The notes under the pieces are model-generated. The model ran no database searches. It saw only the letters and a list, made by a program, of their open reading frames with translations, and was not told the DNA's origin. The translations under genes and the position numbers were made by a program. This document shows positions 1,653-8,355 of a DNA stretch of 32,754 bases, piece by piece. The stretch is from assembly GCA_012270545.1 (NCBI GenBank), contig JAAXID010000047.1, forward strand, positions 1 to 32,754, read 5' to 3'. The first letter of the stretch is position 1; every line of letters starts with the position of its first letter. The stretch is from Anaerolineae bacterium. Its GTDB lineage: Bacteria > Chloroflexota > Anaerolineae > Aggregatilineales > Phototrophicaceae.

Positions 1653-2621
1653 ATGAAAGCCGTCCAAATCATCGCCCGCGGAAAGACCGCCTTCGTCGAA
1701 GCGCCCAAGCCGAGCCTGCAGCCGGGCACCGCTATCATCAAAACCCTGCGTCTGTCCCTCTGCGGCAGCGATGTCCGTCATATCCATTACCTGCCCGCTG
1801 ACCGTTATCCCTCGCCAGTCGGGGAAACGGGCCACGAAATGGTCGGCATCGTCGAAGCCATCGATCCCGCCAACGGCAGCGTCAAAGCGGGTGATACCGT
1901 GCTCTGCCTCGCGCCCGATCACCGCGCCATGCAGGAATACTACCGTGCCCCCATCGACCGCCTGCTGCCTTTCGCCCCCGGCACCCCGCTCGAGCAGGCC
2001 GTCCAGGCGCAGCAATTCGGCACCGTGCTCTTCGCCGCCAAATCGCTGCCCGACCTGCGCGGCAAGACGGTTGCCGTCATCGGTCAGGGATCGGCGGGCC
2101 TCTGGTTCAACTTCGCCCTGCAGCGGCGCCAGGCCGCCAAGATCATCGCCATCGACCGCAAAGCTTACCGCCTCGCCTACAGCAAACGCTTCGGCGCCAC
2201 CGACACCCTTCACAACGCCGATATCGCAACCGCCGACGGCCTGCGCGCGCTCAACGGCGGAGACCTGCCCGATGTCGTGATCGAAGCGGCCGGCGAAGAA
2301 GCGTCGATCCGCCTCGCCATCGAGATCGTCCGCGACAACGGCTTCATCCTCTACTTCGGCGTCCCCCGCTTCGAGACGATGGACTTCCCCATCTTCGATT
2401 ACTTCTGGAAGTCGCTCACCACCCGCTCCAATGTCGGCACCATCAACGAGCCGAATCACGCCAGCACCCGCCAGGCCCTCCAGTGGATCAGCGATGGGAC
2501 AGTCCCCGTCGCTGACATGATCACGCATACCTTCAAGTTCGAGGATGTCTTCGAAGCCTACGAGCTGCATCGCATCCAAGACGAAGGCGCGGTCAAGATC
2601 GTGATTGACATGGAAGGGTGA
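1653..2621 (+). CDS. Zinc-type alcohol/polyol dehydrogenase (MDR superfamily)
   Basis: ORF 1593..2621; more likely start ATG 1653 (MKAVQIIARGKTAFVEAPKP). Contains LCGSDVRHIH, GHEMVGIVEAI, Rossmann VAVIGQGSAGLWFNF. Confidence 0.85.
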   Translation: MKAVQIIARGKTAFVEAPKPSLQPGTAIIKTLRLSLCGSDVRHIHYLPADRYPSPVGETGHEMVGIVEAIDPANGSVKAGDTVLCLAPDHRAMQEYYRAPIDRLLPFAPGTPLEQAVQAQQFGTVLFAAKSLPDLRGKTVAVIGQGSAGLWFNFALQRRQAAKIIAIDRKAYRLAYSKRFGATDTLHNADIATADGLRALNGGDLPDVVIEAAGEEASIRLAIEIVRDNGFILYFGVPRFETMDFPIFDYFWKSLTTRSNVGTINEPNHASTRQALQWISDGTVPVADMITHTFKFEDVFEAYELHRIQDEGAVKIVIDMEG

Positions 2622-5600
2622 TGGGCATGGCTGCGCCGGATAAAGTCTATGAACTTGTTGAAAAATTCGAAAATCGCAAGCCAGCCAATGAAACAGAATT
2701 GCGCCAACAATTCGTTGACAAGCTGTTCTCCGCATTAGGTTGGGATATTACCGATGGCGCGCAAGTCGGCTTGGAAGTCCGCGTCTATGTGGATGAAGGT
2801 GGCGAGATAAAACCCAAACGCCCCGATTATGGTTTCCGCATCGGCAGGACAACACAGTTCTTCGTCGAGACAAAACCACCGCATGTGAATCTAAGAACTG
2901 ACAGCACTCCCGCCTATCAACTTCGTCGTTATGGCTGGTCAGGCAACCTACTCGTCAGCGTATTGACCGATTTCCAGGAATTCTGCGTATACGATTGCCG
3001 CATTCAGCCCAAAAGAAGCGACCCCGCTGATATCGCACGCCTGCGCTATTGGACCTTCCAGCAATATGTCGATATTTGGGGCGACTTCGAGTCGCTATTC
3101 AGCTTTGAAGCCGTAGCCGACGGCGCGCTGCGCAACTGGCTCGAAGACGAGAGAACACGCGGCGCGACCAGCGTCGACCAAGCCTTCCTGCGCGAGATGG
3201 AAAGCTGGCGTGAACTGCTCGCGAAAGACATGGCTCTGCACAATCGCCGCCTCCGCCAGCGCGAGCTCAACCTGCTGGTCCAACGCACCATCGACCGCAT
3301 CATCTTCCTACGCATCGCCGAAGACCGCAACATCGAAAGTTACGGTCGCCTGCAGCGCGCTGCTAGCGAAGGCAAGCAAGTCTACCAAGAACTGAAGACC
3401 CTCTTCCACGAGGCCGACGACAAATACAACTCCGGCCTGTTCCACTTTGGCAGAGAGCAGCGCGGCAGCGATCCCGACCGTCAATCGCTGCACATCCGCC
3501 TCTCCAACGAAACACTGCGAGACATCATCAACAGCCTCTATTATCCCAACAGTCCCTACGAGTTTTCCGTCTTGCCCGCCGATATCCTCGGCCAAGTCTA
3601 CGAGCGCTTTCTCGGCAAAGTGATCGAACTCAGCAGCACAGGTGCAGCGCGGGTTGAAGACAAACCCGAAGTCCGCAAAGCCGGCGGCGTCTACTACACG
3701 CCCAGCTACATCGTCGACTACATCGTCGAGAACACAGTCGGAAAACTGCTGGAAGGGCTGAACCCTGACCAAGCGGCTGAATTGCGCATCCTCGATCCCG
3801 CCTGCGGCAGCGGCTCCTTCCTCGTCGGCGCCTATCAATATCTGCTGGACTGGCACCTGGATTATTACCGCGCGCAGCCGACGCAGTATCGCAACCGCCG
3901 CCGCGAAACCAGCGAAGGCATGATCCTCACCACCGCCGAAAAGCGCCGCATCCTGACCGACAACATCTACGGCGTCGACCTCGACCAAAACGCGGTGGAG
4001 GTGACTAAGCTCTCGCTGCTGCTGAAGATGCTGGAAAACGAGAACGACGCCAGCGGGCGGCAGACCCTCATGTTCGCGGCCGGCGGACGCATCCTGCCCG
4101 ACCTGAGCGGCAACATCAAATGGGGCAATTCCCTCATCGGCAGCGATTTCTACAGTGGCAAACAGATGGATATGTTTACTGACGAAGAGTTGTATAAGGT
4201 CAAGCCCTTCGATTGGGAGAGCCGCGAACAGGGCTTCGGCGATATCGTGGCGGCAGGCGGCTTCGACGCGGTGATTGGCAATCCACCTTATGTGCGCATT
4301 CAGACGATGAGAGAGACCGCTCCCGAAACTGTGTCTTACTACAAGAAGAATTACATTTCAGCGTCCAAAGGCAATTACGACATTTATGTGGTTTTCGCCG
4401 AGAGAGGTTTGCAGTTGCTCAATACGCAAGGCTTGCTGGGTTTCATTCTCCCACACAAGTTCTTTAATGCGAAATATGGTGAGCCGTTAAGAGGCTTAAT
4501 TGCAAAGGGTCAGCATCTCACGCAGGTTGTGCATTTTGGTGCGGAGCAAGTGTTCGCTGGTGCGACAACGTATACGTGTCTGTTATTTCTTCACCAATCC
4601 GGACAATTTGAATTTGAATATGTTAAGGCCCATGATTTAGAGGCTTGGGTCGCGACAAAGGCTGGCGTTGCTGGAACGATTCCATCTATTCGGGCGTCAA
4701 GCGACGAATGGAACTTTGTAGTTGGAAGGGGAGCAGATCTTTTCTACCGTTTCGCTGATCGTTATCCGAAACTCGGCGATTTAACCAATATTTTCGTCGG
4801 ATTACAAACAAGTGCAGATAAAGTCTACATAATGAATCTAGTTGAGGAAACGGAAGAAAATATTGTGCTACGGTCACAGACAGTAAATGCGACGTGTAGA
4901 TTTGAAAAAGACTTGCTTCATCCAGTAGTAAGTGGCACAGATGTAAACAGATATGCTATCTCGAAGACTCGTCAGTATATTTTGTTTCCCTATTATGTAA
5001 TTGATGAGAAAGCGACATTGATACCATTTGACGAATTAAATGACAGATTCCCTCTTACGGCGGATTACCTGTTGAAGAATCGAGAATTACTTGAGAATCG
5101 GGAAAGCGGAAAATTCAAAGATAACTCCTGGTATAGGTTTGGGCGGAGCCAGAACCTAGGAATTCAAGAAAGAATAAAACTATGTATTCCACGCCTTCTT
5201 GAAAGTCTTTATATGAGTTTCGATGAATACGGTGAGTATTTTCTTGATAATGTAGATGTTTGTGGAGTAACAATAAAGCCAGGTCATTTACAATACAGCA
5301 ATTTGTTTTTTCTGGGTTTATTGAACTCTGCACTTTTGAAATGGTATTTTCCGTTTGTAAGTGCGCCATTTCGCGGCAACTGGTTGTCAGCCAACCGACA
5401 GTTCTTGTCTCGACTCCCCATCCGCACAATCGACTTCGACGACCCAGCCGATGTCGCCCGCCACGACAAAATGGTGTCCCTCGTCAACACCATGCTCGAC
5501 CTGCACAAGCAACTTCACAATCTCGCCGGTCCCCACCGCGACATCATCCAAGCCCAAATAGAGGCGGCAGATCGGGCGATTGACGCGCTGGTCTATGAGT

Positions 5601-5647
5601 TGTATGGGCTGAGCGAGGCGGAGATTGCGCTTGTCGAGGGTGGGTGA
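2621..5647 (+). CDS. Type IIG restriction-modification enzyme (Eco57I-like; N-terminal PD-ExK nuclease, N6-adenine MTase, C-terminal TaqI-like specificity domain)
   Basis: ~1008 aa; N-terminal nuclease-like RPDYGFRIGRTTQFFVETKPP; MTase motif I LDPACGSGSFLVGAYQYLL; motif IV GNPPYVRIQ; start overlaps the stop of the upstream gene (TGATG). Confidence 0.9.
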   Translation: MGMAAPDKVYELVEKFENRKPANETELRQQFVDKLFSALGWDITDGAQVGLEVRVYVDEGGEIKPKRPDYGFRIGRTTQFFVETKPPHVNLRTDSTPAYQLRRYGWSGNLLVSVLTDFQEFCVYDCRIQPKRSDPADIARLRYWTFQQYVDIWGDFESLFSFEAVADGALRNWLEDERTRGATSVDQAFLREMESWRELLAKDMALHNRRLRQRELNLLVQRTIDRIIFLRIAEDRNIESYGRLQRAASEGKQVYQELKTLFHEADDKYNSGLFHFGREQRGSDPDRQSLHIRLSNETLRDIINSLYYPNSPYEFSVLPADILGQVYERFLGKVIELSSTGAARVEDKPEVRKAGGVYYTPSYIVDYIVENTVGKLLEGLNPDQAAELRILDPACGSGSFLVGAYQYLLDWHLDYYRAQPTQYRNRRRETSEGMILTTAEKRRILTDNIYGVDLDQNAVEVTKLSLLLKMLENENDASGRQTLMFAAGGRILPDLSGNIKWGNSLIGSDFYSGKQMDMFTDEELYKVKPFDWESREQGFGDIVAAGGFDAVIGNPPYVRIQTMRETAPETVSYYKKNYISASKGNYDIYVVFAERGLQLLNTQGLLGFILPHKFFNAKYGEPLRGLIAKGQHLTQVVHFGAEQVFAGATTYTCLLFLHQSGQFEFEYVKAHDLEAWVATKAGVAGTIPSIRASSDEWNFVVGRGADLFYRFADRYPKLGDLTNIFVGLQTSADKVYIMNLVEETEENIVLRSQTVNATCRFEKDLLHPVVSGTDVNRYAISKTRQYILFPYYVIDEKATLIPFDELNDRFPLTADYLLKNRELLENRESGKFKDNSWYRFGRSQNLGIQERIKLCIPRLLESLYMSFDEYGEYFLDNVDVCGVTIKPGHLQYSNLFFLGLLNSALLKWYFPFVSAPFRGNWLSANRQFLSRLPIRTIDFDDPADVARHDKMVSLVNTMLDLHKQLHNLAGPHRDIIQAQIEAADRAIDALVYELYGLSEAEIALVEGG

Positions 5648-5988: not shown

Positions 5989-6642
5989 ATGAACCTCATC
6001 GACTACGCCAGCATCCTCATCCGCCGCGGCTGGATCATGCTGCTGCTCGCCATCATCACCGCCGCCGGCGCCTTCGCCTTCAGCAAAACCATGGATCCGG
6101 TATACCGCGCCACCCAGAAGGTGCTCATCGTGCCCAGCCGCAGCGACTTCGGCTTAACCCAGGCCGCCAAGCAGACCCTCAACAGCCATGTGGCTTACCT
6201 CAACAGCTCGCTACGGGCCGCCGAAGTCATCGACCGCCTGCAAATGGACATGAGGCCCGAGCAGCTGCGCGCCGATGTCCGCATCGCGCCCGATCTCGAC
6301 AGCCTGATCATCCAGATCGACGCCGAGCACAAAAACCCGGCCCAAGCCGAAAGCATCGTCGCCGCTTGGGCTGAGCTGCTCGTCATCTATCGCAATGATG
6401 AAAACCAGCAAGGCCGCCGCGAAGATCGCATTGTCGCCCGCCTGCAAGACCGCCCCGTCACCACCCTCGCCCGCCCCAATCTGCGCATCAATACGCTGGT
6501 CGGCTTCATCGCCGGTTTCTTCGTCGGCGGGGTCGTCGTCTTCGTGCTGGAATACCTCGAGAGCGCCATCGTCCGCCGCCGCGAAGACCTCGAAGCCATC
6601 GGCGGAATGCCTGTGCTCGCTGCCGTGCCGCCATCGGATTAG
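5989..6642 (+). CDS. Wzz/YveK-type polysaccharide chain-length/capsular biosynthesis membrane protein
   Basis: 217 aa; N-terminal LIDYASILIRRGWIMLLLAIITAAGAFAFSKTMDPVYRATQKVLI, C-terminal TM (LVGFIAGFFVGGVVVFVLEYL), typical two-TM Wzz layout. Confidence 0.8.
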   Translation: MNLIDYASILIRRGWIMLLLAIITAAGAFAFSKTMDPVYRATQKVLIVPSRSDFGLTQAAKQTLNSHVAYLNSSLRAAEVIDRLQMDMRPEQLRADVRIAPDLDSLIIQIDAEHKNPAQAESIVAAWAELLVIYRNDENQQGRREDRIVARLQDRPVTTLARPNLRINTLVGFIAGFFVGGVVVFVLEYLESAIVRRREDLEAIGGMPVLAAVPPSD

Positions 6643-6662
6643 CCTTCCCGCCCGGAGCAACA

Positions 6663-8355
6663 ATGAATATGTCTGCCCCCCCCCCCGACTGAAATTAATG
6701 CTAAATCCAGTTTAGACGCCAGTCACCAGAACACTCTCTACTATGGCGACTGCCTCACCATCATGCGGGAGAAGATGTCGCCCCAAAGCGTCGACCTCGT
6801 CTACCTCGATCCCCCGTTCAATTCCAAGCGTGATTACAACAGCATCTACAAAGACCACACGGGGCGCCCCTTGCCCGATCAGGTCGAAGCCTACACCGAC
6901 ACCTGGTTCCTCGATAACGAGCGGATGCGGACGATCAAAGCGCTGCCCAAGCTGCTGCGCGAGCACGGCGTCGGCGGGCATGAAGCCGATTTTCTGGCCG
7001 GCTTCATCAGCGGGCTGGTCAACGTCCAGGCGGATATGGCGGCGTATTTGGCATACATGACTGAGCGGCTACTGTGGATTAAGTGGACGATGAAGCCAAC
7101 AGCGTCGATATATCTACACTGCGACCCGACAGCAAGCCATTACTTGAAAGTGGTGTTGGATGTGGTGTTTGGGCGGAAGAATTTTCGGAATGAGATTGTG
7201 TGGGAGCGAATAAACTCAAAGGGTAATACATACATCAATCTAGCAAACAATCACGATGTAATTCTCCGCTACTCTAAATCCTCAAAGGCAACTTGGAATC
7301 CGCAATATAGGCCATATTCGCAAGAACAGATTGAACGGCTATACAAATATATTGAAGAGGGTACGGGGAAGCGATACAAATTAGGAGACTTAACGAACCC
7401 CAATAGAAATCGCCCTAATCTAACATACGAATTCCTTGGGATAACTCGCGTTTGGCGTTGGTCAAAAGAGCGAATGCAAAAGGCATATGAAGAAGGCATT
7501 GTAATTCAGAGGAAACCTGGCAATGTTCCTGTACAAAAGAACTACTTAGAGGATGCAAAAGGTAATCCCCTGAGTGACGTTTGGACAGATATAAATTCCT
7601 TAAGATCGAGTTCAAAAGAACGTCTTGATTACGCCACGCAAAAACCAGTCGCTCTGCTCGACCGCATCATCCGCGCTAGCAGCAACCCCGGCGATGTCGT
7701 TTTCGACCCCTTCTGCGGCTGCGCGACAACCATCGAAGCCGCCAGCAACCTCGGCCGCAACTGGATCGGCATCGACATCACCATCCACGCCATCCGCCGT
7801 GTAGCACGCCGCCGCTTGGGCGAGCGCCTGCACCTCATCGACGGCGAGGATTATGTCATCGACGGCGTGCCGAAAAACTGGGAAGGCGCGTTTGAGCTGT
7901 GGAAGCAGGACCCCTACCAATTCCAAAAATGGTGCGTCGAGCTGGTAGAGGGATTCGTGAACGTCAAGAAAACGGCGGACGATGGCATTGACGGGCGCAT
8001 CTATTTCGACATGCCGGGCGTCAAGGTCTTTCAGAGCATGGCGCTGGAGGTCAAAGGCGGGCAGAATGTCGGTCCTGCCGATGTGGGTTACCTGAACAGC
8101 GTATTGCAATATGAAAATGTGCAGCTGGCGGGGCTGATTACGCTCCATCAACCGGGCAATCAGCAAACCAAAAACTTCAAGCAGAAAATGGCGTTGGCCG
8201 GCGACTTGGAGATTGCGGGCAGATTGTACCCGCGCATGCAAATGCTGACGGTGGACGAAATCCTAAATGGCGCGAAGTTCAATATGCCCAGCCCAGCCGG
8301 GCGGACGGGCACGGGTTATGAGCGCGATCTGTTTAACCCGCCGCAAAAGCTGTAG
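6663..8355 (+). CDS. Beta-class site-specific DNA methyltransferase fused to C-terminal Mrr-like endonuclease domain; N-terminus frameshifted as sequenced (C11 tract)
   Basis: ORF 6763..8355 has VDLVYLDPPFNSKRDYN (motif IV), DPFCGCATTIEAASNLGRNWIGIDI (motif I) and C-terminal TADDGIDGRIYF...ALEVKGGQ (D-ExK, Mrr_cat-like). Conserved NTLYYGDCLTIM lies upstream of the called ATG in the same frame; the SD-preceded ATG at 6663 is 1 nt out of frame. Confidence 0.85.
6676..6686 (+). repeat. Poly-C homopolymer (C11) near the 5' end of the MTase-nuclease gene
   Basis: Direct reading: ATGAATATGTCTG-CCCCCCCCCCC-GACTGAAATT. C11 leads to a TGA after GAC; C10 would join the main ORF. Confidence 0.9.

Follow-up and report, generated by a model that had tools for sequence, protein, structure and literature searches.

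A poly-C tract behind the start codon of a methyltransferase-nuclease fusion gene as a candidate translational switch in an Anaerolineae bacterium

The stretch of DNA analyzed here (the window; 32,754 nucleotides) is the whole contig JAAXID010000047.1 (G000:C282) of a 4.0-Mb, 290-contig, 91%-complete Anaerolineae genome. On its forward strand, a wzz-like chain-length determinant gene (5989-6642, stop codon at 6640-6642) is closely followed by a segment that reads GGAG-CAACA-ATG-AATATGTCTG-C11 (6654-6686). The segment contains a Shine-Dalgarno-like GGAG (SD; 6654-6657) placed 5 nt 5' of an ATG at 6663, which itself lies 20 bp downstream of the wzz-like gene, and a homopolymer of 11 cytosines (6676-6686) that begins in codon 5 after this ATG. 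As assembled, the ATG opens a leader frame of only nine codons (MNMSAPPPD; 6663-6692) that ends at TGA 6690-6692. The main frame, encoding a methyltransferase (MTase) fused to a nuclease domain, opens at 6667, directly after TGA 6664-6666, and continues to 8355, its first ATG, GTG or TTG being found at 6763. When the leader was translated for each tract length from C8 to C14, ten cytosines joined it to the main frame in a product of 563 amino acids and 13 cytosines did so in one of 564, and C8, C9, C12 and C14 gave products of 8 to 17 amino acids only. The ribosome-binding site and start codon, the fusion at C10 or C13 and the lack of a canonical start in the main frame before 6763 had all been described in an earlier sequence-only reading of this DNA, and each was borne out. 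The longest other run of C or G in the window is 6 nt, and under a first-order model 0.011 runs of at least 11 are expected per window (about 1.3 C/G runs per genome), so the C11 run is more than a chance feature of composition. The tract is thus long enough to slip, and unit changes in its length toggle an intact product, as in contingency genes.

The wzz-like gene and the fusion gene are presumed to be co-transcribed, because no promoter match was found between them. A switch acting through a promoter spacer was considered and set aside for the window, where no sigma-70-like match lies around the tract; in the sister species G023 described below, one weak sigma-70-like match is located before the corresponding tract. 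The other genus members examined, including those whose wzz is 92 to 93% identical, carry no MTase at that site.

The long frame matches the N6_N4_Mtase domain (PF01555; 6790-7797, E=1.4e-43), with the motifs DPPFNS and FDPFCG, and, further downstream, an Mrr_cat-type nuclease domain (PF04471; 7906-8151, E=1.8e-4) with the motif GIDG...EVK, the score of the latter match being weak (22.1 bits vs a cutoff of 21). Upstream of both lies the conserved N-terminal element LYYGDCLTIM (6736-6765). In an alignment with 17 homologues, the GD of this element (17/17), DPPFNS, the FDPFCG-type motif and the nuclease residues G[IV]DG...(E/Q)VK were kept, the VK being present in 17/17 and preceded by either E or Q. 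A GD element upstream and a DPPY/F motif ahead of an FxGxG-type motif is the arrangement of beta-class DNA methyltransferases, and the weak domain match is accompanied by the D...(E/Q)xK residues of Mrr_cat/PD-(D/E)xK nucleases. All catalytic motifs are intact, and no further stop or frameshift interrupts the 530 codons. The gene fits a single-chain modification-restriction enzyme with a putative nuclease, and we regard its product as DNA-methylating and probably also DNA-cutting. The alignment also confirmed that translation from ATG 6763 would lose the GD element common to 17/17 homologues. The earlier description of LYYGDCLTIM as a conserved element therefore held; the close homologues reach only a short way upstream of it, most of them starting at a nearby Met.

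The enzyme did not fall into either of two familiar classes. Type IIG enzymes, taken strictly, combine an N-terminal nuclease, a gamma-class MTase and a C-terminal target-recognition domain on one chain, whereas here a beta-class MTase with an internal variable region precedes the nuclease, and REase_MTase_IIG was absent from the 25 best PADLOC matches of the fusion enzyme. A Type III (Mod/Res) assignment was likewise rejected, as no res helicase-nuclease gene is adjacent, the neighbors being wzz and a PLP enzyme. PADLOC models of Type II and Type III MTases both match the protein. A separate Type IIG restriction-modification enzyme of 1009 amino acids is encoded 1 kb upstream (2618-5647; PADLOC 1.1e-256), and its gene contains no long C or G homopolymer.

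The contig scan for relatives returned five of them and no sibling strain. In the sister species G023 (contig G023:C105, JAJDWK010000030.1), wzz, the SD-ATG-...-C10 segment and an orthologous MTase follow each other in the same order. The two sequences share 77% DNA identity without interruption from wzz across the junction into the MTase; this identity is lost over about 7190-7612 and returns at 77% beyond it. At the protein level, the flanking enzyme parts share 90% and 83% identity and the middle segment (7190-7612) only 31%; the GC content of this segment is 41% vs 56-58% on either side. This presumed target-recognition region has evidently been recombined or replaced in one lineage. In the flanking parts, the differences from the G023 orthologue concentrate at third codon positions (first:second:third, 18:10:55 in the N part and 39:31:105 in the C part), which indicates that the coding sequence is under purifying selection. 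Since wzz, SD-ATG-C10 and the MTase follow one another in G023 too, with DNA that is 77% identical, the gene and the tract are old at their present site. Both species have retained a C run at this position although the surrounding bases have changed, and it measures C11 in the window vs C10 in G023, with differing downstream frames. At another locus of the genus, lengths of C11, C13 and C14 were found among apparent orthologues.

The comparison with homologues also disclosed a difference in how the two genes would be read. Most close homologues begin M-N-[TKI]-L-[YF]YGD, that is, at a Met equivalent to 6727-6729 and not at the equivalent of 6763, the alternative start weighed in the sequence-only reading. 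In the window gene this Met corresponds to Gln (CAG, 6727-6729). The gene has thus lost the start codon of its homologues, and because CAG stands in place of ATG the enzyme would rely on the ATG of the leader together with the tract. G023 keeps its own MTase ATG, about 45 bp downstream, and no tract length joins its leader to the MTase. There, C10 gives a leader peptide of 8 amino acids, C11 one of 54 that runs out of frame through the MTase start, and C9 or C12 one of 23 to 24 that ends at an ATGA overlapping the MTase start, an overlap that arises automatically from the conserved MN start. We offer only as a suggestion that the G023 tract, if active, would act by coupling or interference. 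A C run does occupy the same place in G023, but since the G023 leader never fuses and the MTase has its own ATG, the switch is not conserved in detail. A search for C9 located 36 to 66 nt from a Y-x-G-D codon motif yielded only the window and G023 as MTase starts.

Runs of at least 10 C or G occur in 32 of the 34 genus genomes, frequently in large numbers within one genome, and some of these runs are very long. We searched these genomes with the pattern GGAG-N3-12-ATG-N0-26-C9+ and, as a control, with the same pattern reversed. The forward pattern was found at about 32 distinct places in 16 of the 34 genomes and the reversed one in at most 3 (overlapping) matches, and the 64 genomes of sister genera held only three such sites, all C9. 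The G-run version was not enriched over its reversed control, so the claim of a genus-wide habit covers coding-strand C runs only. Of the C-tract genes, 19 have one phase of at least 100 amino acids; the assembled sequence reads in that phase in 8 of them and in another phase in 11, mixed phases being what a free-running tract length predicts. In several cases the tract is immediately followed by the signal peptide of the encoded protein, which has no Met of its own. Pfam domains in the tract genes include beta-helix, Pectate_lyase_5, Chlam_PMP, SH3_3, fn3 and GT2 glycosyltransferase; secreted beta-helix or adhesin-like proteins and glycosyltransferases are typical contingency-gene classes.

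Several individual loci deserve mention. Families of secreted beta-helix/Pmp-like/SH3/fn3 proteins (L168-L190, mostly from G030, G013, G026 and G028) share SD-ATG-polyC leaders, several of them near-identical in sequence, in mixed phases. The window's own genome carries a GT2 glycosyltransferase gene with an SD-ATG-C12 start (G000:C117:899-910; L202/L072), out of frame as assembled and in frame with C11, which shares both architecture and genome with the fusion gene. Also in this genome, the gene of a secreted protein is preceded by a promoter-like TTGCAA...TACAAT whose 16-nt spacer contains a C9 (G000:C153, L074:1997-2075), a candidate for transcriptional phase variation. Contig G000:C139 starts with C13 (L073:1-13), and a signal peptide and Pmp-like sequence come directly after it in frame; the assembly probably broke at this tract. 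On G000:C50 (L071:2035-2044), a minus-strand ORF of 584 codons from stop to stop carries, in frame, a tract that reads as G10 in the part encoding its signal peptide.

Two further MTase genes of the genus bear tracts. One, recovered by a G-run search near the Y-x-G-D codon motif, comes from another species of the genus and encodes an MTase fused to an HNH nuclease; its G11 tract lies behind the start, and the gene is in frame, with a product of 543 amino acids (G005:C62, L195:500-2128). The other, from the window's own genome, has a mid-gene G9 and is out of frame, G7 or G10 opening at least 404 codons up to the contig end (G000:C176, L075:1747-2962). These G-tract genes do not look like orthologues of the window gene, and modification genes therefore seem to have gained tracts more than once in the genus.

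In our view, the C11 run is likely to serve as a translational contingency tract, at which slipped-strand changes reversibly switch the frame of a fused restriction-modification enzyme. The phase-variation interpretation put forward in the sequence-only reading is supported by the following observations: (i) an orthologous tract is present in a second, independently assembled species, (ii) genes with SD-ATG-polyC starts are found across the genus in mixed phases, (iii) two other MTases bear tracts, and (iv) the window gene combines purifying selection with intact motifs. Ribosomes would start at ATG 6663, probably on the mRNA of the wzz operon. After slipped-strand errors leaving 10 or 13 cytosines, they would read MNMSAPPP(P)TEINAKSSLDASHQNTLYYGD... 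and produce one polypeptide that unites a DNA methyltransferase and an Mrr-type nuclease domain; at 11 cytosines they would stop after nine codons, so that methylation and cleavage would go off together. We infer that such slippage takes place in living cells and that the enzyme is active. The OFF state would be harmless, methylation and cleavage residing on one chain, and their joint silencing fits a fused gene; the benefit may lie in diversity in phage restriction or methylation. The switch would be one of the genus-wide SD-ATG-polyC set. A more specific joint reading, in which a genus-wide poly-C contingency system operates and the G023 tract steers its leader ORF to coupling at C9 or C12, is possible but rather doubtful.

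The main rival for the window copy is an assembly or sequencing error, with a tract really fixed at C10 and an ordinary intact fusion preceded by a proline-coding leader. Errors are frequent in homopolymers, and in this draft genome several long C/G runs border N gaps or terminate contigs; apart from the tract, the ORF is intact. An error of length is moreover conceivable because three tract genes of the source genome (the fusion gene, the C117 glycosyltransferase and the C176 MTase with G9) were all assembled out of frame. However, a miscalled base would not account for a long C run conserved at the same place in another species or for the excess of SD-ATG-polyC starts in the genus, which separate assemblies show in mixed phases, and a mistake of one C would still leave a tract long enough to slip; we judge this explanation unlikely. 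Production of the enzyme directly from C11, through slippage of the ribosome or of RNA polymerase or by initiation at a non-standard codon, appears less probable again. Slippage during expression on homopolymer runs is known in general, and the main frame, open from 6667, offers CTG 6673 and an ATT after the tract, but the 15 nt that separate GGAG from CTG 6673 are too many for efficient initiation, and programmed slippage would not need the variation of phase seen among the tract genes of the genus. Finally, the lack of any canonical start yielding the full protein as assembled could point to a pseudogene, the frame having been lost in a single event as the enzyme decayed. This is the least probable of the three and very improbable in itself, given 530 codons free of any other lesion, intact catalytic motifs, divergence biased to third positions and a loss of frame that one C reverses.

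A translational switch at the C tract resembles known systems to different degrees. Phase-variable Type III mod genes and their phasevarions occur in Haemophilus, Neisseria, Helicobacter and Moraxella. The window gene shares with them the beta-class MTase domain and the frame-dependent ON/OFF control by a repeat tract, here predicted, but it has no separate res, its nuclease domain being fused at the C terminus. The Pmp adhesins of Chlamydia are phase-variable through poly-G, a likeness that concerns several other tract genes of the genus with Chlam_PMP/beta-helix repeats (by match to the repeat model alone) and not the fusion gene. The closest system in operation is Cj0031 of Campylobacter jejuni NCTC11168, a Type IIG enzyme uniting restriction and modification on a single chain, which is ON with G9 and OFF with G10 and whose OFF state was considered by the authors to be less toxic, both activities being lost together (PMC4889913). 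In both, methylation and cleavage (the latter putative here) are on one polypeptide, a G/C homopolymer lies in the ORF and one base would toggle it; the target-recognition regions vary, between alleles in the case of Cj0031, and many homologues lack the tract (PMC4889913). In contrast, Cj0031 is a 1243-aa Type IIG enzyme with its G9 far inside the gene, at position 2573 (PMC4889913), whereas the 563-aa product predicted here would be a beta-class MTase followed by Mrr_cat, with a C tract at codon 5. A general role as a device in prokaryotes has been suggested for tracts close to the 5' ends of genes (PMC2831843).

In the open-access literature covered, we found no paper with phase variation at homopolymers in Chloroflexi/Chloroflexota as its subject, which is weak evidence of absence, nor one on phase variation in sponge symbionts. 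The window gene belongs to a known kind, and the genus-wide set adds interest. The fused enzyme would be a simple case: with nuclease and protecting methylase on one chain, switching could never leave the former active in the absence of the latter. Phase variation driven by repeats is mainly known from host-adapted bacteria with small genomes; if true, a habit of this sort shared across an uncultured genus of Chloroflexota, on adhesin-like proteins, a glycosyltransferase and self-contained restriction enzymes, would suggest that its members experience comparable, fluctuating pressure, be it from phages or from a host.
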